DNA of 64,000 nucleotides from a virus, in IMG/VR virus record IMGVR_UViG_3300042922_000600, positions 1-64,000 of that record; one strand, written 5' to 3'. Numbering within the stretch: the first letter of the stretch is position 1; each line of letters opens with the position of its first letter. Shown here in pieces: positions 1,294 to 60,985 of this stretch. The notes under the pieces were generated by a model. It saw only the letters and a program-made list of their open reading frames with translations. It ran no database searches and was not told the origin of the DNA. The position numbers and the translations under genes are program-made.

Positions 1294-1723
1294 TTATCCA
1301 CAGTTTATGCCAGTTATCCACAGCTTGCATAGTCAAAGTTATACACAGCTTATCAACATATTTATCCACAGGCGCCTACTTATCCACAGCTAGTCAAGTT
1401 ATCCACAGTATCCACACCCTTGGCACTTATCCACAATTATTGACACTTATCCACAAGCCAAACACTTATCCACAATTTATTGCACTTATCCACAGGGGCA
1501 ACACTTATCCACACTTTGAGCAAGTTATACACAGGCTGTCAAGTTATCCACTGTTTTATGGGGTTATACACACCCCGATTAGTTGTCCACAATTTGGCAA
1601 GTTTATCCACAATAAAATTGTGTCAAGTTGTCCACATTTTTATCCACACCCTGACTAAAATTATCCACAAAGTTGTCCACAATACGAGAATAGTTATCCA
1701 CAACCCCTGCCAAGTTGTCCACA
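1294..1723 (+). repeat. DnaA-box array, putative replication origin or DnaA-titration locus
   Basis: Fourteen perfect TTATCCACA boxes start at 1294, 1314, 1362, 1380, 1399, 1427, 1447, 1466, 1486, 1505, 1603, 1640, 1661 and 1694. TTATACACA starts at 1339, 1525 and 1564. TTGTCCACA starts at 1583, 1628, 1673 and 1715. One-mismatch boxes start at 1350, 1408 and 1544. All lie on the + strand. Between 1427 and 1603 ten consecutive boxes are spaced 20,19,20,19,20,19,20,19,20 bp. TTATCCACA is the high-affinity DnaA box of Escherichia coli and Bacillus. The array is followed by tandem repeats and AT-rich DNA. It could be an origin that recruits host DnaA, or a sponge that titrates DnaA away from the host origin. 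Confidence 0.85.
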
Positions 1724-6969: not shown

Positions 6970-7293
6970 ATGGAAGACGATATTAAAGTTAGAAAACTGT
7001 ATCACTGTACACTTAAAAACAATATGGACAGTATTCAAGATGAAGGAATAAACCGCAGTTGCGATGGTGTTGTGTACTTGGCGGATTCTGCAGATAACTC
7101 GGCTAAGTTTTTAGTGATACGTGGATTCAGTCCAGAAAATTTAGTGTCATTTGAGGTGGATGTAGATGAATTGGACCGTAGCAAGTTGGATTATTCTTAT
7201 GACCATAACGAAGCATTCTTTGGTTGTAAGGCTTACGTGTATGCGGACGATATTTCAGCAGGTGCCCTAATTGACATGTATGAATTTGAGTGA
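6970..7293 (+). CDS. ADP-ribosyltransferase-fold-like protein (KptA/DarT-like pattern, 107 aa)
   Basis: ATG at 6970 follows TAGGAGG. The N-terminus reads LYHCTLKNNMDSIQDEGI, then GVVYLADS about 20 residues later. A starting H-x-T, an 'I..EGI' helix and a 'VYLAD' strand are typical of the ART fold seen in KptA/Tpt1 and DarT-like proteins. A catalytic Glu cannot be assigned by eye. Phage ART proteins can modify host proteins or nucleic acids, but the assignment here is a fold-level guess. Confidence 0.5.
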   Translation: MEDDIKVRKLYHCTLKNNMDSIQDEGINRSCDGVVYLADSADNSAKFLVIRGFSPENLVSFEVDVDELDRSKLDYSYDHNEAFFGCKAYVYADDISAGALIDMYEFE

Positions 7294-49972: not shown

Positions 49973-50527
49973 ATGAAGTTAGATGGCATTGAGTTATATG
50001 GTACTGAATTATCTCACTACATACTTAGAAAAATATCCAAATTGGAACAAGAGATGATATATGACAGGACAAAAAAGTATATAAAAATAGATATACACAT
50101 AGTGGACTTTTGTAGTCCCATGCACTTAAATTTTGGCAAAAGAGAGTTACCAGAGCCAGACAACTACAAGTCCTTTTTAGAGTGTGAGGAGTTCACTAGG
50201 GGTAATTTGTTGCACCTTCCCATGGAACTGGCGATGAAACTTAGTTCAGAGCAATTGAAGTTGTACTGCTACTTGATGGGAATTGCCCATTACTTTGACT
50301 TTTATGAACTTGATTGGCTAAAGGTGTGTGATAACTATATGGGCAACTGGAGGGACTTCTTTAGTATGGTTAAGGAGTTACAGGGCATGACATTATCCCA
50401 CGCATATTTTGATTACCCAGTACTAATAACTGAATTATCCAATACACAACTTAGTATAATAATTGACGCAAAGGATAAGGAGGAGGCATATGAACTACTT
50501 CAAAAATACCGCAGAATTGTCGCTTAA
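49973..50527 (+). CDS. Hypothetical protein before the initiator (184 aa)
   Basis: ATG at 49973 follows AAAGGAGG. Mixed alpha/beta, with Tyr- and Asp-rich segments and no clear motif. It overlaps the initiator gene by 38 nt. Confidence 0.65.
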   Translation: MKLDGIELYGTELSHYILRKISKLEQEMIYDRTKKYIKIDIHIVDFCSPMHLNFGKRELPEPDNYKSFLECEEFTRGNLLHLPMELAMKLSSEQLKLYCYLMGIAHYFDFYELDWLKVCDNYMGNWRDFFSMVKELQGMTLSHAYFDYPVLITELSNTQLSIIIDAKDKEEAYELLQKYRRIVA

Positions 50528-52103
50528 AGCAAGTGTCAAGGGGTATTGGATAAACCATAATTTTATGGGAAGATGTGATGGAGTTACAGTTATACCCAAT
50601 AGTCTATTGACGGACCAGGCACTTAAATTAGATGAAAGGCTTGTTATAGCTTATTTGATATCCTATAATTTTAAAAATTCTGGAGTTGGCTACAAGGGTT
50701 TTGTTTTCCCCAGGGTTGAGACTATAGCAAATGATTTGGGTATATCTAGAAGACAGGTTTTTGATAAGATATCTGGAATTGAGGAAAAGGGGTACATTTA
50801 CAGAATTTCAAACAGGAGCACTATTGACTACTATGACAGCATAGAATACATAAATAAATTCTTTGATTTGCATATAAATGAGGCTACTTTGTACTTCCTT
50901 GACCTATGGAAATGTTTGTCTAAAGAAGAAATTATGCGTTACAACGGCGTAGACAGTGAGATGGATTATGAAGAGATGCTAAAAGAAAGAAATGAATTTA
51001 TTGAGTATTTTGATAGCTTACGTGGTATTGAGGATAAGGTAGAGCTGGATGAATATTTAGGAAATAAGGAAGTTACGAGAAATTGCACACCCCCGTGTGC
51101 GGAAACTCGCACACCACCGTATGCGGAAACTCGCACACAGAAACATACAAATATAAAAAATACAAATATAAAAAATAATAATGCGTTGCATTTTCAGTCT
51201 AAATCATTTTTTACTCACCTTCTAAATACAGATATCAAAAAAGAGGACTTTGATAAACCTTTATCCTATAAGGAAGCCAAAAGTTTAAAAGAGCAGAAAA
51301 AGAAAAAAGAACAGCAGGACAAGAAGGATAAAACCTCACAGGAGTTTTTAGATAAACTGGCTAAAAGAGAATTTAAGAATTTCAATCTGGATGAGTTATG
51401 TTTATATTATGAACATCGATTAAAGGAAATTTATGGCACCGCATGTAAGGTAAGCGAGAGGAGTTTTAGAACCTTCAAACTACTGTATGAGCAGAATGGT
51501 TCCTATGGTTTGACAATGGAACAGCTGGCAAGGGTGGTTGATGTATTTTTAGAGACTTATCGTGAAGGTAAGATAAAGGGATTGGACTTAGAAAGCTATC
51601 CCAATCCAGTATACGCTCATTTGCTATTAAATAATAAGGGTAGCATTTTAAAACAGATAATAAACTTGTCCGAGTATTCAGGAGTTCCTACTGTAACAGG
51701 GTCAGGCAGTGTTGTATACAAAGAAGATAGTGACTATAGAGATAAGCTCCCTGAGTTGGTGGAGTTGTGGAAACATGAGAAACCTAAGTGGCTAAAGAAG
51801 TATGGGCTCATTGATGGGAAAGAAGATAGAAACTATATGAAGCGTATCAAATGGGTTCCAAATGACTACTTTGAGGATGACGATATACCGAGTTTTGGTA
51901 GGTACATAAGTAGGTGGTTTGTTAATGGATATCTTACAGATGAAGTTAAGGATAAAATATCTTCACAGGACTTTATGTATTTAGAGGAATATGTAGAGAA
52001 TGTTATGATACCTGCAAATGAGGAATATGATGAGATACAAAAGGCTATACATGAGAAAGTGTATGGTATTGGGACAGATATAAGGATAGGAGGCTTGGTA
52101 TAA
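50490..52103 (+). CDS. Replication initiator-like protein (537 aa)
   Basis: The N-terminal domain (about 35-115) reads as a winged helix with TIANDLGISRRQVFDKI, as in DnaD/replication initiator proteins. A linker at about 198-217 contains TPPxAETR repeats encoded by DNA iterons. The C-terminal part is helical and charged. The following gene is a helicase loader, so it likely melts or marks the origin and recruits helicase. ATG at 50490 follows AAGGAGG. Confidence 0.78.
   Translation: MNYFKNTAELSLKASVKGYWINHNFMGRCDGVTVIPNSLLTDQALKLDERLVIAYLISYNFKNSGVGYKGFVFPRVETIANDLGISRRQVFDKISGIEEKGYIYRISNRSTIDYYDSIEYINKFFDLHINEATLYFLDLWKCLSKEEIMRYNGVDSEMDYEEMLKERNEFIEYFDSLRGIEDKVELDEYLGNKEVTRNCTPPCAETRTPPYAETRTQKHTNIKNTNIKNNNALHFQSKSFFTHLLNTDIKKEDFDKPLSYKEAKSLKEQKKKKEQQDKKDKTSQEFLDKLAKREFKNFNLDELCLYYEHRLKEIYGTACKVSERSFRTFKLLYEQNGSYGLTMEQLARVVDVFLETYREGKIKGLDLESYPNPVYAHLLLNNKGSILKQIINLSEYSGVPTVTGSGSVVYKEDSDYRDKLPELVELWKHEKPKWLKKYGLIDGKEDRNYMKRIKWVPNDYFEDDDIPSFGRYISRWFVNGYLTDEVKDKISSQDFMYLEEYVENVMIPANEEYDEIQKAIHEKVYGIGTDIRIGGLV
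51083..51170 (+). repeat. Iterons and AT-rich region inside the initiator gene (putative origin)
   Basis: Two 24-bp units (51095-51118 and 51119-51142) each contain an inverted repeat, GTGTGCG-GAAACT-CGCACAC in the first. A GCACAC half-site precedes them (51085-51090). They are followed by an AT-rich stretch with repeated ACAAATATAAAAAA. Iterons plus an unwinding element within the initiator gene are the layout of the lambda O origin. Confidence 0.7.
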
Positions 52104-52822
52104 TGAAGTTTACGGGTTTTGATGAGCAGGATTTTGTATTTGATAAGGATAAATGTACTGTGTCCAGAACGTGCAGAAGAGGGCAGTGTAATGATGGCTG
52201 TGCTGTTTACTATAAAACTGAGTACATTTATGGAATAAATAATGTCCCTAAAAAATACAGGGACTGGGTCCCAGAGGATTTATCCAAAATAGTCAAAGAG
52301 GATGTTGACCTTGGTGTGGAGCACATAAAGAGATTGACGTCTGACGCTAACTATACGAAGGGTATATACTTATATGGAAATGTAGGTTCAGGCAAAACTT
52401 CACTTGGATTGGTGTTGTTAAATGACTTCCTTAGAAGGATGATTAACGAGTATAGGATAATGGAGTACGTTGAAAATGAATTTACGCCAGTGCTGTTTGT
52501 TCCATTTAGCCAGTATGCAGAGACTTATAAAGCTAGGTTCTCAAACAAGTCTGACTTCCTGGAATTAATAAATAATAACATTTACAAGAGCCACCTCGTA
52601 ATGATTGATGATATTGGGTTTGACGGTCAGACTAAAACTACACTGGACTTACTTTTTAACATCATAGACTCTGCATTGGCTAATGATAGAGGACTTATAT
52701 TAACTGGTAACTTACCACCACAGAAATTGCAAGGTGTGTTGGGCAGTAGGTTGCACAGCAGAATAGTAAATGGTTGTGAGTGCTATGAAGTTAGGTCCTC
52801 CGACTTACGTTCGAGCTTTTAG
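52103..52822 (+). CDS. Helicase loader, DnaC/IstB-like AAA+ ATPase (239 aa)
   Basis: GNVGSGKT (92-99) is the Walker A motif and VMIDD (166-170) the Walker B. An N-terminal Cys cluster (C18, C24, C29, C33) may bind zinc. Loads the replicative helicase at the origin. ATG at 52103 overlaps the initiator stop. Confidence 0.88.
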   Translation: MKFTGFDEQDFVFDKDKCTVSRTCRRGQCNDGCAVYYKTEYIYGINNVPKKYRDWVPEDLSKIVKEDVDLGVEHIKRLTSDANYTKGIYLYGNVGSGKTSLGLVLLNDFLRRMINEYRIMEYVENEFTPVLFVPFSQYAETYKARFSNKSDFLELINNNIYKSHLVMIDDIGFDGQTKTTLDLLFNIIDSALANDRGLILTGNLPPQKLQGVLGSRLHSRIVNGCECYEVRSSDLRSSF

Positions 52823-52940: not shown

Positions 52941-52970
52941 AATACAAAAGTAGTTGAGTTCGTTTATACT
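52941..52970 (+). promoter_or_regulatory. Promoter of the helicase gene (AATACA-18-TATACT)
   Basis: TATACT at 52965-52970 in a GTTTATACT context, with a weak -35 (AATACA, 52941-52946). It excludes translation starts upstream of 52977. Confidence 0.5.
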
Positions 52971-52992
52971 ATATTGTAGGGAGGTCATTGAC

Positions 52993-54366
52993 TTGGTAGA
53001 GTATCAAATAATTAATCACATTTTGGAGCAGAAGGATATTGGTATAATACAGAGAAACAAAATAAATGAAACTTATTTTGAATTCTGTAAAGAAGAGTTT
53101 GAATTTATACATACACATTGGAGAAAGGTAGGACAGATTCCTGACATACATACATTCCTTGCAAAATACCCTGATTTTGAGGTGTTTAAGGTAGGGGAGT
53201 CGGAGGAATACTTAGTAAACTCACTACGGGAGCAATATGTCTATAATAAAATAGTTCCCATACTTAAAGAAGGTGACGAAAAGCTAAGAGAGGATAGTTT
53301 TGACGCCGTTGACTTCCTAAGGGCACAACTGAGGGAAATTGCAGAAACGCTAGACTTTAGACATGTAGGCCACAATTTAGCGAAAGACACTGATGTTAGA
53401 AAAGATGACTATTTGAAAAGAATGGAAATGAAAGGTTTGACAGGGATACCCACTGGTCTTGAGTGGTTGGATGACCTGACTAACGGTTGGCAGGAAGAAG
53501 ACTTTGTAATGCTAGGTGGTTACCTTGGCGAAGGTAAATCATGGCTGCTATTATTTCTTTTATGGGCGGCATGGGGTAGGTCAAAAAAGAAGGTACTTTT
53601 AATAAGTAGAGAGATGGGCAAAGTCCTAGTGGGTTTCCGTTTTGATACATGGAATGGAAATTTCAGTAACCTTGGGCTTATGAAAGGTAATACGGAATTA
53701 GGAAAAGTTGATAAAAGTGTTGGGGGTAGAATAGTACCAATTGATTTATCAAAGGACGACTATATTAAGTATCTGGAAGAGCTTAAGGATGAAGACAATC
53801 CAGACTTTATGGTCTACACAAATGAGGATAATGCTCAGTGTACTTTTGAGGACATTGAGAACTTAATAGATATTATTAAACCAGATATTGTTGGCATTGA
53901 CCAACTTTCCTTAATAGGCACAGTTAAGAAATTTGGAACAATAAGGGAGAGGTATATATTCCTTACTAGAAACTTTTACAGACTATCCAGCAAAAAGAGA
54001 ATACCTATATTAGTTACGGGTCAGATAGGAAGAGACTGGGCAAAGGGTAGGGACAAGAACAAAAAGAATGGCAGTGACCAGATAGATGCACCAGAGACTC
54101 ACCAGTTCATGGAGAGTAACAGTGCGGGTGAAGATGCCACTCGTGTTGTTACATTTGCAAGAAAGGGAAACATAGTTATGATAAATGTTCCGAAGAATAG
54201 ATATGGCATTGGCGGAAAGCAAGAATTTGTGTGGGACATAGATAGGGGCTTTATAAATCTTTTCGACAGACCAGAAGAGGATGAGGATGAGCAACCACAG
54301 GCAAAGAGAGGCTCCAAGGATAAGAAAGAGAACAAGGTAATACAGACAAGCGAGTATATATTTTAG
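52993..54366 (+). CDS. Replicative DNA helicase, DnaB-like (457 aa)
   Basis: Hexameric 5'-3' helicase. GEGKS at about 179-183 is the Walker A motif and IDQLS (D303) the Walker B; GIPTGLEWLDDLT precedes the core. TTG at 52993 follows GGGAGGTC, and the promoter overlapping any longer frame argues for this start. Works with the loader and primase nearby. Confidence 0.9.
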   Translation: MVEYQIINHILEQKDIGIIQRNKINETYFEFCKEEFEFIHTHWRKVGQIPDIHTFLAKYPDFEVFKVGESEEYLVNSLREQYVYNKIVPILKEGDEKLREDSFDAVDFLRAQLREIAETLDFRHVGHNLAKDTDVRKDDYLKRMEMKGLTGIPTGLEWLDDLTNGWQEEDFVMLGGYLGEGKSWLLLFLLWAAWGRSKKKVLLISREMGKVLVGFRFDTWNGNFSNLGLMKGNTELGKVDKSVGGRIVPIDLSKDDYIKYLEELKDEDNPDFMVYTNEDNAQCTFEDIENLIDIIKPDIVGIDQLSLIGTVKKFGTIRERYIFLTRNFYRLSSKKRIPILVTGQIGRDWAKGRDKNKKNGSDQIDAPETHQFMESNSAGEDATRVVTFARKGNIVMINVPKNRYGIGGKQEFVWDIDRGFINLFDRPEEDEDEQPQAKRGSKDKKENKVIQTSEYIF

Positions 54367-54885: not shown

Positions 54886-55096
54886 ACAGGAAAGAAGAAG
54901 AGCCGGAAAACTGGCGAATAACTCTAAGGAGTTTTCCGAGTTTGTAGTTCAAAATAGATTGCAGGTATTACAGGCATCACTATTAGCGAGTCTGGACACA
55001 CTAAAAGAAGATTTTAATTTTGATGAAAAGCAATTAAACGACTTTGCAGTTAAGCATAATGAACGTCTTAAAGCTACATTGGGTGGTGGTAAATAA
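54878..55096 (+). CDS. Small protein starting NRQERR (72 aa)
   Basis: TTG at 54878 follows GGGGGTGGAG and gives a start MNRQERRRAGK, a common opening of small phage proteins. Mostly helical. It overlaps the previous gene and is directly followed by the primase. Confidence 0.6.
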   Translation: MNRQERRRAGKLANNSKEFSEFVVQNRLQVLQASLLASLDTLKEDFNFDEKQLNDFAVKHNERLKATLGGGK

Positions 55097-56142
55097 TGTT
55101 GGTGATATGGGATACACCACTCATTGTTGAATTAGAAGTAGTACTTCATTTTTTGAAACAGGAAATGGAAGAAATGCATGGAAGGGACTATTTTGGCAGG
55201 TCCGTTGAAAGTGGAAGCAACTTGATGGTTAAGTGCCCATTTCATAAGGATGGGCAGGAAAGAAAGCCAAGCATGGGCATCCGTGTGGATGACGGTCAGT
55301 TTAACTGCTTTACTTGTGGGGAGCATGGAGACCTTCCAATGTTTGTTGCAAAGTGTCTGGATTTGGGAGTTAAGAGGGACACCACTGGCGGTATAGTGGA
55401 ACCCCCCAAACCCGAATTGGGGTATAAATGGCTACTTAAGAAGTTTAATTTAGCTGTGCAGGGTGAGAGACCAGGTCTTGGGCTTGGACAGTCTAGGACG
55501 AGTAAAAGATTTGATAGGTTTGTCCCAGAAAGCGACTTAGAGCAATACTATGAATATGTGCATCCTTACATGGAAGAGGTTAGATTTATCCCACAAAAAA
55601 TGCAGGACTATCTAGAGATAGGATATGACAAGGCAACCAACAGTGTTATATTTCTTATGAAGGACTTAAAGGGAAATGTTTTCTTTGTTAAAAAACGTCC
55701 AATCACTTCCTATAATGATGTAAGGTATACTAACGTAAAGGATATACCAAAGAAGCATTTGATGTTCGGAGCCTACTACATTTATAGGGACTATGTTGCT
55801 ACACCAAAGAAATGGATGTCGGACATGATACATAAAAATGGAATTACTCTTGTTGAGGGTGAAATAGATGTTGCAAGTGGATGGACACTTAGAATGCCCA
55901 CTGTCGGGATAGGTGGGAGGATATTTTTCAAGGAACAGGCTAAAGTACTTGCGGCAATGGGAGTAAAAAATATAAACCTGGGCCTGGACAATGATGAGGA
56001 AGGTCAAAAAGAAACAGTGAGAATAGTAGACAACTACTCAAGCACATTTAGATTGAGCCTAATTAAGTATCCTGACTGGGCTAAAGACATGAATGATGTT
56101 GTTAAGAATGGAAAAGGTATTGAGGTATTAAAATTTCTATAG
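55096..56142 (+). CDS. DNA primase, DnaG-like (348 aa)
   Basis: Makes RNA primers. Zinc-binding CPFH (C47-H50) and CFTC (C71-C74) form the CHC2 module. The Toprim core has VEGE (E254) and DND (D298-D300). Shorter than cellular DnaG, lacking a helicase-interaction domain of usual length. ATG at 55096 overlaps the previous stop. Confidence 0.9.
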   Translation: MLVIWDTPLIVELEVVLHFLKQEMEEMHGRDYFGRSVESGSNLMVKCPFHKDGQERKPSMGIRVDDGQFNCFTCGEHGDLPMFVAKCLDLGVKRDTTGGIVEPPKPELGYKWLLKKFNLAVQGERPGLGLGQSRTSKRFDRFVPESDLEQYYEYVHPYMEEVRFIPQKMQDYLEIGYDKATNSVIFLMKDLKGNVFFVKKRPITSYNDVRYTNVKDIPKKHLMFGAYYIYRDYVATPKKWMSDMIHKNGITLVEGEIDVASGWTLRMPTVGIGGRIFFKEQAKVLAAMGVKNINLGLDNDEEGQKETVRIVDNYSSTFRLSLIKYPDWAKDMNDVVKNGKGIEVLKFL

Positions 56143-57698: not shown

Positions 57699-58364
57699 AT
57701 GGCAGGTTTTAAAGGTATTGATGCAATTAAAGGGGCAATTGACAATTTTGCCACGGGTTCAAATGTCGGATTTTTTGGGTTAAAGGATGATGGGGACAGA
57801 GCAGATGTTCAATTCCTACATAAAGATGCAGATGACCTAAACGTACTACTTACGCACCAAATAGAGGTGGACGGAAAGAAGAGATATGTGGAGTGCCTGA
57901 AGATGTACGAGAAACCTTGTGCAATGTGTGAGCAAGGTAGCAAGACATCGCTTAGACTATTCTTATATCTATTAAGCTGGAGACCGGACGAAAAAGGAAG
58001 AGTTCCAAAAGAACCAAAGGTAGAGTTATGGGATAGAGGTAAAGACGTAATAAATCGTATCCTTAACTTAATAGGCAAGAAAAAGGACTTAAGAAAGCAT
58101 GTGTATGAGGTTGTTAGAAATGGAAAGGCTGGAGATACTGGAACTTCCTATGACATTGACCCATATGATGAAAGTGAATTATTAGTACCAATTGAGAAAT
58201 TACCAGAGCGCCCAGATATATATGAATTTGTGCTGAAAAAGAATTATGATGAAATGGTTGCACTGCTAAAAAGTGGTGCAGGAGCGGCAAGCTCAACTCC
58301 AACAAAAAGACAGGGCGCAACTAATAGGTTTACGCCAATTGATGATGACGACATACCATTTTAA
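57699..58364 (+). CDS. Single-stranded DNA-binding protein (221 aa)
   Basis: The acidic tip DDDDIPF matches SSB C-terminal tails that bind replication partners. The centre has a Cys pair (CAMC) plus aromatic and basic residues of an OB fold, as in T4 gp32-like phage SSBs with a zinc site. ATG at 57699 follows AAAGGTGG. Confidence 0.82.
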   Translation: MAGFKGIDAIKGAIDNFATGSNVGFFGLKDDGDRADVQFLHKDADDLNVLLTHQIEVDGKKRYVECLKMYEKPCAMCEQGSKTSLRLFLYLLSWRPDEKGRVPKEPKVELWDRGKDVINRILNLIGKKKDLRKHVYEVVRNGKAGDTGTSYDIDPYDESELLVPIEKLPERPDIYEFVLKKNYDEMVALLKSGAGAASSTPTKRQGATNRFTPIDDDDIPF

Positions 58365-58564: not shown

Positions 58565-60985
58565 TTGAAACGTAATTTACTTTTTGGGGTTGACAATAAT
58601 TTAAAGAGGGATGTAATAAATCCAAAAGAAATAAATAAAATTATATCCTCCATGACTGAGAAAAGGACAGTTAAGAAGTCCGGAGCCGGAAAAAGTATTG
58701 GTAAGATAAAACAGACGGTTTCCATACTTGTGGATGAGTTTAAGAAAAAGCACCCAAACTTACTTTCAGAGTGGCCGAGTAATTACATATTAGTGGACAC
58801 AGACGAGAAGTTGGATAGACTACTTCGCTCCATTGAGGAGTGCAGAAGATTTTCGTATGACACAGAAACTATGGGCCTAAAGATATGGCATGGCGATAAC
58901 ATAGTAGGGATGTCTTTTTATACGCCCTGTGATGGTAATGCCTGGTATATACCAATACATCATCTTGACTGTGTAGAACCTGTGGAGGGTAAGCAATTAC
59001 CTGTGGAGTTTATAAAAGAAAATATGGCACCTGTTATGCGGAAGAAAAGAGAAGAATCCCTTGCGTACAGTATGCGAACTTTAAACAGTATTGACGACAT
59101 AGACATGTCCGAGGAATACTGTGGTGTTGTAACATTCAATGGTAAGTTTGACAGCCATGTGGTTTGGATAAATTTAGGCATTGAAATGCCGGATATTGCG
59201 TTTGAGGGATATTTAGCATCAAGGGTATTAAATGAAAATGAACCAGTAAATAAATTGAAGCCCTTGTGCAATAAATGGCTCAAACAGTACCAACAAAATC
59301 CGTTAGACAAATTTGATGAGATATTTGAAAAGACGCCATGTGCCTACTTTCCAATATGGATGGTTGGTTATTATGCATGCAAAGACGCCATACTTCATTG
59401 GGAATGGATGGAATTTGCGGAGAGCCACATAAAGAAGAGACCCGGCCTTGCTGAGTCCTACTATGTAATACAGTTGCAGGTTATGCCATCAGTAATTGCG
59501 GCAGAGCGTAGAGGTATGTTGCTGGATGTAGACAGAGTAAACGCAAACAAGGAAGAATTTGAGGGATACAAGGTTGCTATTGAGAAAACAATAAAAACTC
59601 AATTACAGGAATTGATGGATAAATTCCTGGACGATAACCCTCATGTGCAGGTTGTTAATGTCCCGCCCAGCACAAAGAATGGTAAAGCCAAGGTATTTGA
59701 CAGGAACACTTTAAGGACATCTTTTATAGCCGGATTGAACATAAACAGCCCTCCACAGTTGGGTGACTTATTTTTCTCAATATGGGGTTGGCCAACTACT
59801 AAGAAGGACGGCAAGGCTACAAATGAGAAGGTTATGCAAAGGCTCGCTAAACAATTTTCAGTATGTAAAAGCATCTTAGCATACAGAACAGTTAAGAAAA
59901 TGATAGGAACTTACTGTGATGGCTTATTAGAATCAATTAGCCCCGTTGACGGTAGAGTTCATACTTCCTTTAACCCTTATAAGGCAGTTACCAACAGGTT
60001 CTCAAGTTCCGACCCCAATCTACAGAATATCCCTTCTAAGTCAAAGAAATTATTAATAGAGGGGCAGGAAGTTAAGGTCGATTTTGGTAAGAAGATAAGA
60101 CGTTGCTTTATTGCAGAGGAAGGAAATGTCCTATGCTCCACTGACTACTCACAGATAGAGCCACGTATTCTAGCAGTGTTATCCGGAGATGAGACGATGC
60201 TTGACGCATATAGGAATGCCAAGGACGTGTACGTGCAACAGGCAGTATTGTTCTTTCCCGGACACCCGGAACAGGAGTATTTAGACAATGACGATACAGG
60301 GTATAAAAGCCCATGGAGAGGTAAGGTTAAGGCAATAGTCCTTGGACTTAACTATGGTATGACAGAAGTTGGACTTGCTGAGGGACTGGACTGTACTGAG
60401 ACAGAGGCTAAACGAGAGATTGAAAGATACTTTGACACATTTCCTGCAATTAAAAAGTTCACTCAAAGTGTGCTGGACTTTGCATATGAAAATGGATATG
60501 TGGAGATGTTGTACCACACAAAAAGAAGACTTCCTGATTTGCATGATAGCCGTGCATGGATTCGCTCAGACGCAGAGAGACAGTGCGTAAACTCTATAAT
60601 GCAGGGCTCTAGTGCTGAGATAACTAAAAGAGCTATGGCATTTATATATGCAAACCAGCGTCTAAGAGAATTGTGCGTAACTCTTATATCCACTGTTCAT
60701 GATGAGGTTATTACTTCCATACCAAAAGATAATTTGATGGAGGCTATACCAATTATTAAGCAGTGTATGATTGATGCATGTAGTAGACTTACTGAAAGAG
60801 GCGGTATAGTTATAAAAGTAGATGCTGAAGTAAGTGAGCAGTGGTATGGACCAGTATATCATTGGGAAGGGCATGAGGAAGTCGGAGAGGACAATGAAAA
60901 ACTAATTCTTGAGGAACTGGACGATGATTTAGGTGAAGAAGAGACAGAAGTGCAAGATGAATACGAAGAGAGTGTATTTGCATAA
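58565..60985 (+). CDS. DNA polymerase, family A with 3'-5' exonuclease (806 aa)
   Basis: Replicative polymerase. The exonuclease motif DTE (D99, E101) is intact. Polymerase motif A is STDYSQIEPR (D527), motif B KAIVLGLNYG (K589-Y597), and motif C HDE (712-714). Length of about 800 is usual for phage Pol I-type enzymes. TTG at 58565 follows AAAGGA inside the previous gene. The acidic C-terminus (about 775-806) is an extra tail. Confidence 0.95.
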   Translation: MKRNLLFGVDNNLKRDVINPKEINKIISSMTEKRTVKKSGAGKSIGKIKQTVSILVDEFKKKHPNLLSEWPSNYILVDTDEKLDRLLRSIEECRRFSYDTETMGLKIWHGDNIVGMSFYTPCDGNAWYIPIHHLDCVEPVEGKQLPVEFIKENMAPVMRKKREESLAYSMRTLNSIDDIDMSEEYCGVVTFNGKFDSHVVWINLGIEMPDIAFEGYLASRVLNENEPVNKLKPLCNKWLKQYQQNPLDKFDEIFEKTPCAYFPIWMVGYYACKDAILHWEWMEFAESHIKKRPGLAESYYVIQLQVMPSVIAAERRGMLLDVDRVNANKEEFEGYKVAIEKTIKTQLQELMDKFLDDNPHVQVVNVPPSTKNGKAKVFDRNTLRTSFIAGLNINSPPQLGDLFFSIWGWPTTKKDGKATNEKVMQRLAKQFSVCKSILAYRTVKKMIGTYCDGLLESISPVDGRVHTSFNPYKAVTNRFSSSDPNLQNIPSKSKKLLIEGQEVKVDFGKKIRRCFIAEEGNVLCSTDYSQIEPRILAVLSGDETMLDAYRNAKDVYVQQAVLFFPGHPEQEYLDNDDTGYKSPWRGKVKAIVLGLNYGMTEVGLAEGLDCTETEAKREIERYFDTFPAIKKFTQSVLDFAYENGYVEMLYHTKRRLPDLHDSRAWIRSDAERQCVNSIMQGSSAEITKRAMAFIYANQRLRELCVTLISTVHDEVITSIPKDNLMEAIPIIKQCMIDACSRLTERGGIVIKVDAEVSEQWYGPVYHWEGHEEVGEDNEKLILEELDDDLGEEETEVQDEYEESVFA

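Follow-up and report, generated by a model that had tools for sequence, protein, structure and literature searches.

The left genome end and its DnaA-box array

The 64,000-nt window analysed here comprises bases 1-64,000 of the IMG/VR record IMGVR_UViG_3300042922_000600, which totals 75,238 bases and is identified as a tailed phage by its terminase, portal, head, tail and replication genes. Searches with the ligase, terminase and DnaB led to a single close relative, IMGVR_UViG_3300042922_000707, a record of 76,232 bases with 79-93% identity across most of the aligned segments, plus weak terminase matches. The left genome end (1-2504) contains no convincing gene, the first likely gene starting at 2505, and the same left end is present in the relative. 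The genomes of the two phages start and stop at exactly corresponding bases, and a gene that by eye resembles a QueC/amidotransferase fusion is severed by the right end at record base 75238 (L124:12239). The common ends of two genomes that are 79-93% identical in most aligned segments, together with the severed gene, suggest either true physical ends or a common assembly break. No Rfam match to a structured RNA was obtained in the window, and GC skew was uninformative as a pointer to the origin because nearly all genes lie on the + strand.

Within this non-coding end, a DnaA-box array occupies positions 1294-1723 on the + strand. Our recount confirmed the 14 perfect TTATCCACA boxes and ten one-mismatch boxes that the first-pass annotation had placed within these 430 bp. 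In 2,000 local dinucleotide shuffles of the region 1286-1740, the maximum on the + strand was 2 perfect boxes and 3 near-perfect ones, against 14 and 24 observed, and over the whole 64 kb 63 matches to TTATCCACA with at most one mismatch were counted versus 24.0 ± 4.5 in shuffles. The description of all boxes as lying on one strand holds for 1294-1723 but not beyond, since a minus-strand box, TTATCAACA, follows in inverted orientation at 1727-1735 and closes the array; in the relative this closing box is a perfect TTATCCACA on the minus strand. Two outlying GTATCCACA sites on the + strand start at 2139 and 2177 (2139-2185), and their 38-bp spacing is kept in the relative.

Alignment with the relative revealed a near-invariant block on either side of the array. 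The block immediately to the left (1220-1280) contains TTTACGAGCTCG, one arm of an inverted repeat whose other arm is found at 982-1001, and the block immediately to the right (1736-1828) contains GATATCAATT at 1802-1811. The array is flanked by copies of GATATCAATT (901-910 and 1802-1811) and by the inverted repeat CCAGCTCGTAAACGGGC / GCCCTTTTACGAGCTCG (982-1001 and 1242-1261), all of which the relative retains. A TTTTATACTGTA-like motif recurs ahead of genes (2416-2427, 2290-2303 and near L124:11068) and may be a phage promoter element.

Conservation and spacing of the boxes

The relative carries its own array in the same stretch, with 16 perfect boxes on the same strand, the inverted box and a core of alternating 20- and 19-bp steps. 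The comparison with related phages that the first-pass annotation had called for could be made with one relative, in which both the boxes and the 20/19 phase are kept. Between the two arrays, 7 of 217 aligned box positions differ (96.8% identity), as against 48 of 215 spacer positions (77.7%; Fisher p 7e-10). Within the boxes of both arrays, nearly all substitutions are at position 3 (A to G), position 5 (any base) or position 6 (mostly C to A), and none occurs at positions 2, 4, 7 and 8; outside the 9-mer there is little conservation, the only clear preference being for A at −2. For comparison, the DnaA-box consensus of E. coli is TTATnCACA (PMC5742627). Since the boxes are conserved above the spacers and vary in a DnaA-like manner, selection acts on the 9-mers themselves, and the variation pattern matches that of DnaA. 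The earlier proposal that the boxes are intended for host DnaA is well supported by the consensus match, the variation, the selective conservation, the failure to detect a DnaA DNA-binding domain in the phage and the recurrence of such boxes in other phages, and we infer that host DnaA binds them. The repeats could instead be iterons for a phage-encoded protein that merely resemble DnaA boxes, as they are direct repeats at steps of about 20 bp like those of plasmids. This reading is very improbable, given that the 9-mer is the exact DnaA consensus and varies as DnaA tolerates, that little is conserved beyond the 9 bp, and that the same 9-mer occurs in unrelated phages and hosts.

The regular core of the array (1427-1611, + strand) consists of ten boxes, whose starts from 1427 to 1603 follow steps of 20, 19, 20, 19, 20, 19, 20, 19 and 20 bp, exactly as previously described, which gives a two-box period of 39 bp. 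The right segment (1628-1723, + strand) has steps of 12, 21, 12, 21 and 21 bp, the spacing usual in other phage arrays. The mean period of 19.5 bp had been interpreted as close to two helical turns. However, two turns of B-DNA correspond to 21 bp, so that a 19.5-bp step would turn successive boxes by about −51 degrees. In 81 distinct viral arrays with at least three perfect boxes among the matches listed, the spacings peak at 11-12 bp (88), 21-22 bp (40) and 32-33 bp (20), with four cases of 20 bp and none of 19 bp. Two-turn phasing of the core was rejected on both counts, the 21-bp length of two turns and the avoidance of 19-20 bp by other viral arrays. The 20/19 core is thus unusual among viral arrays, whereas the right segment obeys the common spacing rule.

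Tandem Repeats Finder detected the 39-bp period at 1424-1535, and the spacers of the core alternate between 11 nt (36-40% GC) and 10 nt (58-60% GC). The alternation of 20 and 19 bp therefore probably arose through tandem growth of a 39-bp two-box unit, for which a permutation test of spacer similarity was only suggestive (fractions 0.10 and 0.04). The 39-bp tandem period in part of the core would also be expected from neutral repeat expansion without any function, but boxes conserved far above their spacers in two unrelated phage groups, this phage with its relative and the Klebsiella phages described below, make a functionless array the least probable explanation that we considered.

One-sided arrays in other phages, bacteria and plasmids

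A search for three same-strand perfect boxes at short range returned at least 120 matches in viral contigs, whereas the reversed motif gave 19 across the entire collection. A terminase relative was found in 8 of the 13 array-bearing viral records tested, and some contigs could be bacterial. The next densest viral arrays among the matches listed, a sample chosen for a 19-bp pair, have 14 and 13 boxes, and the array studied here is the densest DnaA-box run among those met in this search. T7-like phages of Klebsiella, Proteus and Enterobacter carry five to eight boxes. In Klebsiella phage Kp7 (L323:2969-3128), the array occupies genome positions 6-251, ahead of the early genes, ocr among them, and the record contains it twice. 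Across eight Klebsiella phages of the Molineuxvirinae, the boxes are 98.8% identical and the spacers 77.5%, with units of 20-22 bp gained and lost. Smaller arrays were identified in Butyrivibrio phage Arian, Lactococcus phages AM4 and PMBT69, and microviruses; the microvirus records (L163, L164, L166 and L319) have four to six same-strand boxes at steps of 11 or 20-21 bp, mostly in intergenic DNA. BLAST of the array region against phages gave no match at E 1e-5. The DNA look-alikes in phage records were obtained at loose E-values only, and those used here were verified by box counting, by which Pseudomonas phage LIT1 was dropped, as it has one box only.

The Klebsiella Molineuxvirinae (Kp7 and others), Enterobacter phage phiEap-1, Arian, AM4 and the microviruses share with the present array clusters of this 9-mer that lie on one strand and mostly in non-coding DNA, and the Klebsiella group also shares its conservation of boxes over spacers and its location at a genome end. 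They differ in having three to eight boxes, mostly at steps of about 11 or 20-22 bp, and these phages are unrelated to ours. T7-type and rolling-circle replication are not known to make use of an oriC-type origin. The arrays of T7-like phages and microviruses, where no such origin is expected, are therefore an argument that such arrays can have a purpose in phages other than that of an oriC-type origin. Phage DnaA-box arrays are described in none of the papers found; for alphaproteobacterial phages, one study reports that predicted DnaA sites show no positional asymmetry (PMC9437464).

One such purpose would be a transcription or timing signal, by which the level of DnaA sets early transcription, or an organiser of the genome end that shapes the first-entering DNA. 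Near the left end, the array precedes the early genes, and a promoter-like TTTACA-18-TATACT is found at 2396-2425; the Kp7 array likewise precedes early genes, among them ocr, within 251 bp of a genome end. However, the 12 sites returned by a promoter scan compare with 9.5 expected, some 660 bp separate the likely early promoter from the array, and known DnaA-regulated promoters need far fewer than 24 boxes, which leaves this role rather unlikely.

A scan of genomes from 84,980 species of bacteria and archaea found no stretch with four relaxed boxes (TTRTNCACA) at 20-19-20 bp, and three perfect boxes at 19-20-bp steps occurred in 17 stretches. Among those whose surroundings were inspected, some are oriC-like and situated beside dnaA or dnaN (Epulopiscium, Erysipelotrichaceae, Contendobacter and a Synechococcaceae MAG) and one is plasmid pSOE4, and the oriC-like matches examined have at most five evenly spaced boxes. 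These results agree with the initial impression that the array is denser than most bacterial origins. It shares direct consensus boxes at steps of about 20 bp with bacterial oriC regions of this kind, such as the Epulopiscium locus beside dnaA, but unlike these, with their at most five even boxes, it is accompanied by neither a dnaA gene, a conserved unwinding element nor a DnaA-trio. With datA and the chromosomal clusters of E. coli, B. subtilis and Streptomyces, which lower DnaA availability or activity, the array has in common that it is a non-coding cluster of DnaA boxes outside oriC; in contrast to them, it resides on a phage, packs about 24 same-strand boxes, part of them in a regular core, into 430 bp, and would act, if at all, via the phage copy number.

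BLAST of the array region against plasmids gave no match at E 0.01. Like the array, the DnaA-assisted plasmid and phage-plasmid origins RK2 oriV and P1 oriR, and plasmid pSOE4, place same-orientation host DnaA boxes on a mobile element. In pSOE4 (NZ_CM009564.1; L290:10-199), an RPA initiator gene is preceded by ten near-identical 20-bp repeats that each contain a perfect DnaA box, so that the ten boxes follow at exact 20-bp steps. RK2 and P1 use host DnaA boxes, and inversion of one RK2 box abolished replication (PMC4980987). In plasmid origins, Rep iterons and the rep gene stand beside the boxes, whereas in the phage the iterons lie within a gene, separated from the boxes by 49 kb on the linear map or by about 26 kb if the genome is circularised.

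Candidate origins and the probable role of the array

The phage encodes a replication gene set on the + strand of the window, which comprises a replication initiator of the winged helix-turn-helix, O-like or replisome-organiser type (50463-52103; PHROG 270, PHROG 391, PF13730), a DnaC/DnaI-like helicase loader, an AAA+ ATPase without DnaA domain IV (52103-52822; PF00308 and DnaC/DnaI-type families), a DnaB-type replicative helicase (52954-54366), a DNA primase (55096-56142), a single-strand DNA-binding protein (SSB; 57699-58364) and a family A DNA polymerase (58565-60985); clamp-loader proteins are encoded as well. The DnaA DNA-binding domain (PF08299) was not detected in the 75-kb record, with positive controls, so that no dnaA gene was detected on the replicon. 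A Bac_DnaA match at 52103-52819 turned out to be the loader-type ATPase without domain IV, and a phage-encoded DnaA was discarded; a phage-encoded DnaA regulator of the YabA type was looked for and none was found.

A competing origin candidate is located within the initiator gene (51085-51183, + strand), where two 23-bp palindromic iterons GCACACCNCCGTRTGCGGAAACT and a partial third precede an AT-rich tract. Over 50 bp this tract is 84% AT, and its instability ranks at the 99.7th percentile; the relative conserves both the iterons and the tract. Full iterons occur only at 51085 and 51109, with no other copy in the window and none near the array. Iterons and an AT-rich tract inside the initiator gene form the layout of in-gene phage origins such as lambda O, and 51,085-51,183, as a putative origin, is by its sequence a better-formed candidate than the array.

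A cluster of 24 boxes in 430 bp is what an oriC-type origin would have, and host DnaA on the boxes could open nearby DNA and recruit the phage or host loader and helicase, making the array an origin or auxiliary origin. Such a role remains a serious alternative, because the 2.5-kb region is conserved, non-coding and holds a dense one-directional cluster, and because box orientation matters in RK2; the roughly 20-bp-spaced boxes beside dnaA in a few bacteria such as Epulopiscium, the ten boxes of pSOE4 beside its initiator gene and the use of host DnaA boxes by RK2 and P1 also speak for it. We nonetheless regard it as rather doubtful. The phage possesses its own initiation set and the better-formed candidate at 51.1 kb, iterons are absent near the array, and arrays also occur in phages with T7-type or rolling-circle replication. 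An AT-rich unwinding element adjacent to the array was not found: the weakest nearby DNA (1893-1942) is 158 bp off and poorly conserved in the relative, and the array itself ranks at the 85th percentile in the same comparison of DNA weakness. No DnaA-trio stands beside the array (1150-1900), the single run of three at 1178 being 116 bp distant.

As at datA, the array consists of dense DnaA boxes in non-coding DNA outside oriC. Considering these dense conserved sites and the smaller versions in unrelated phages, the array probably captures host DnaA, either to restrain host replication or to aid the start of the phage's own. That it is a capture site, a decoy for host DnaA, is our leading explanation, tentatively held at a probability of roughly 0.4, and we favour it over an origin, though not strongly. 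Both functions had been offered by the first-pass annotation: the origin is weakened by the findings above, and soaking up DnaA would fit the comparative evidence better.

According to the capture model, host DnaA would bind the boxes, probably cooperatively along one strand, and as phage copies accumulate, each with 24 boxes, about 2,400 sites would be reached at 100 copies, compared with roughly 300 consensus boxes on the E. coli chromosome (PMC5742627). Free DnaA would then drop below the level required for oriC firing and new host initiations would cease, so that nucleotides and shared replication parts would remain available to the phage, whose own replication would begin at the in-gene iterons with its own initiator. 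In E. coli, initiation and growth are reportedly impaired by additional copies of datA, and in B. subtilis and Streptomyces clusters of DnaA boxes restrain initiation (PMC5742627). Several points count against capture. The 24 boxes of an incoming genome are few relative to the DnaA pool of the cell, and titration would therefore be effective only once phage replication is under way. Pure titration needs no single orientation, regular core or fixed place near the genome end, T7-like phages have other means of stopping host DNA synthesis, and the conserved 2.5-kb non-coding region is also origin-like.

Going a step further, and with more reserve, one-sided arrays may constitute a convergent, undescribed class of elements in tailed phages with complete replisomes, T7-like phages and ssDNA microviruses, which sequester host DnaA and block host replication; the array of this phage would be the largest known, with a spacing by which successive DnaA molecules would wind around the helix rather than line one face. 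Phages are known to hit host replication with proteins, and a DNA-only decoy for the master initiator, having arisen repeatedly, would if true be a different strategy. If the array were an origin instead, the phage would be unusual in combining a largely self-sufficient replisome with reliance on host DnaA. On either reading, the array is a natural test object for DnaA assembly on long one-sided arrays.

Two further observations concern other parts of the record. QueD and FolE genes, plus QueE- and QueC-like genes recognised by eye, are found at record positions 67257-69284 (L124:4258-6285) and suggest a 7-deazaguanine pathway, with no TGT-family enzyme (PF01702) in the record; modified G, if present, could alter DnaA binding. 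The region 6970-7290 gave a weak match, under the curated cut-off, to the Tpt1/KptA RNA 2'-phosphotransferase family (PF01885).
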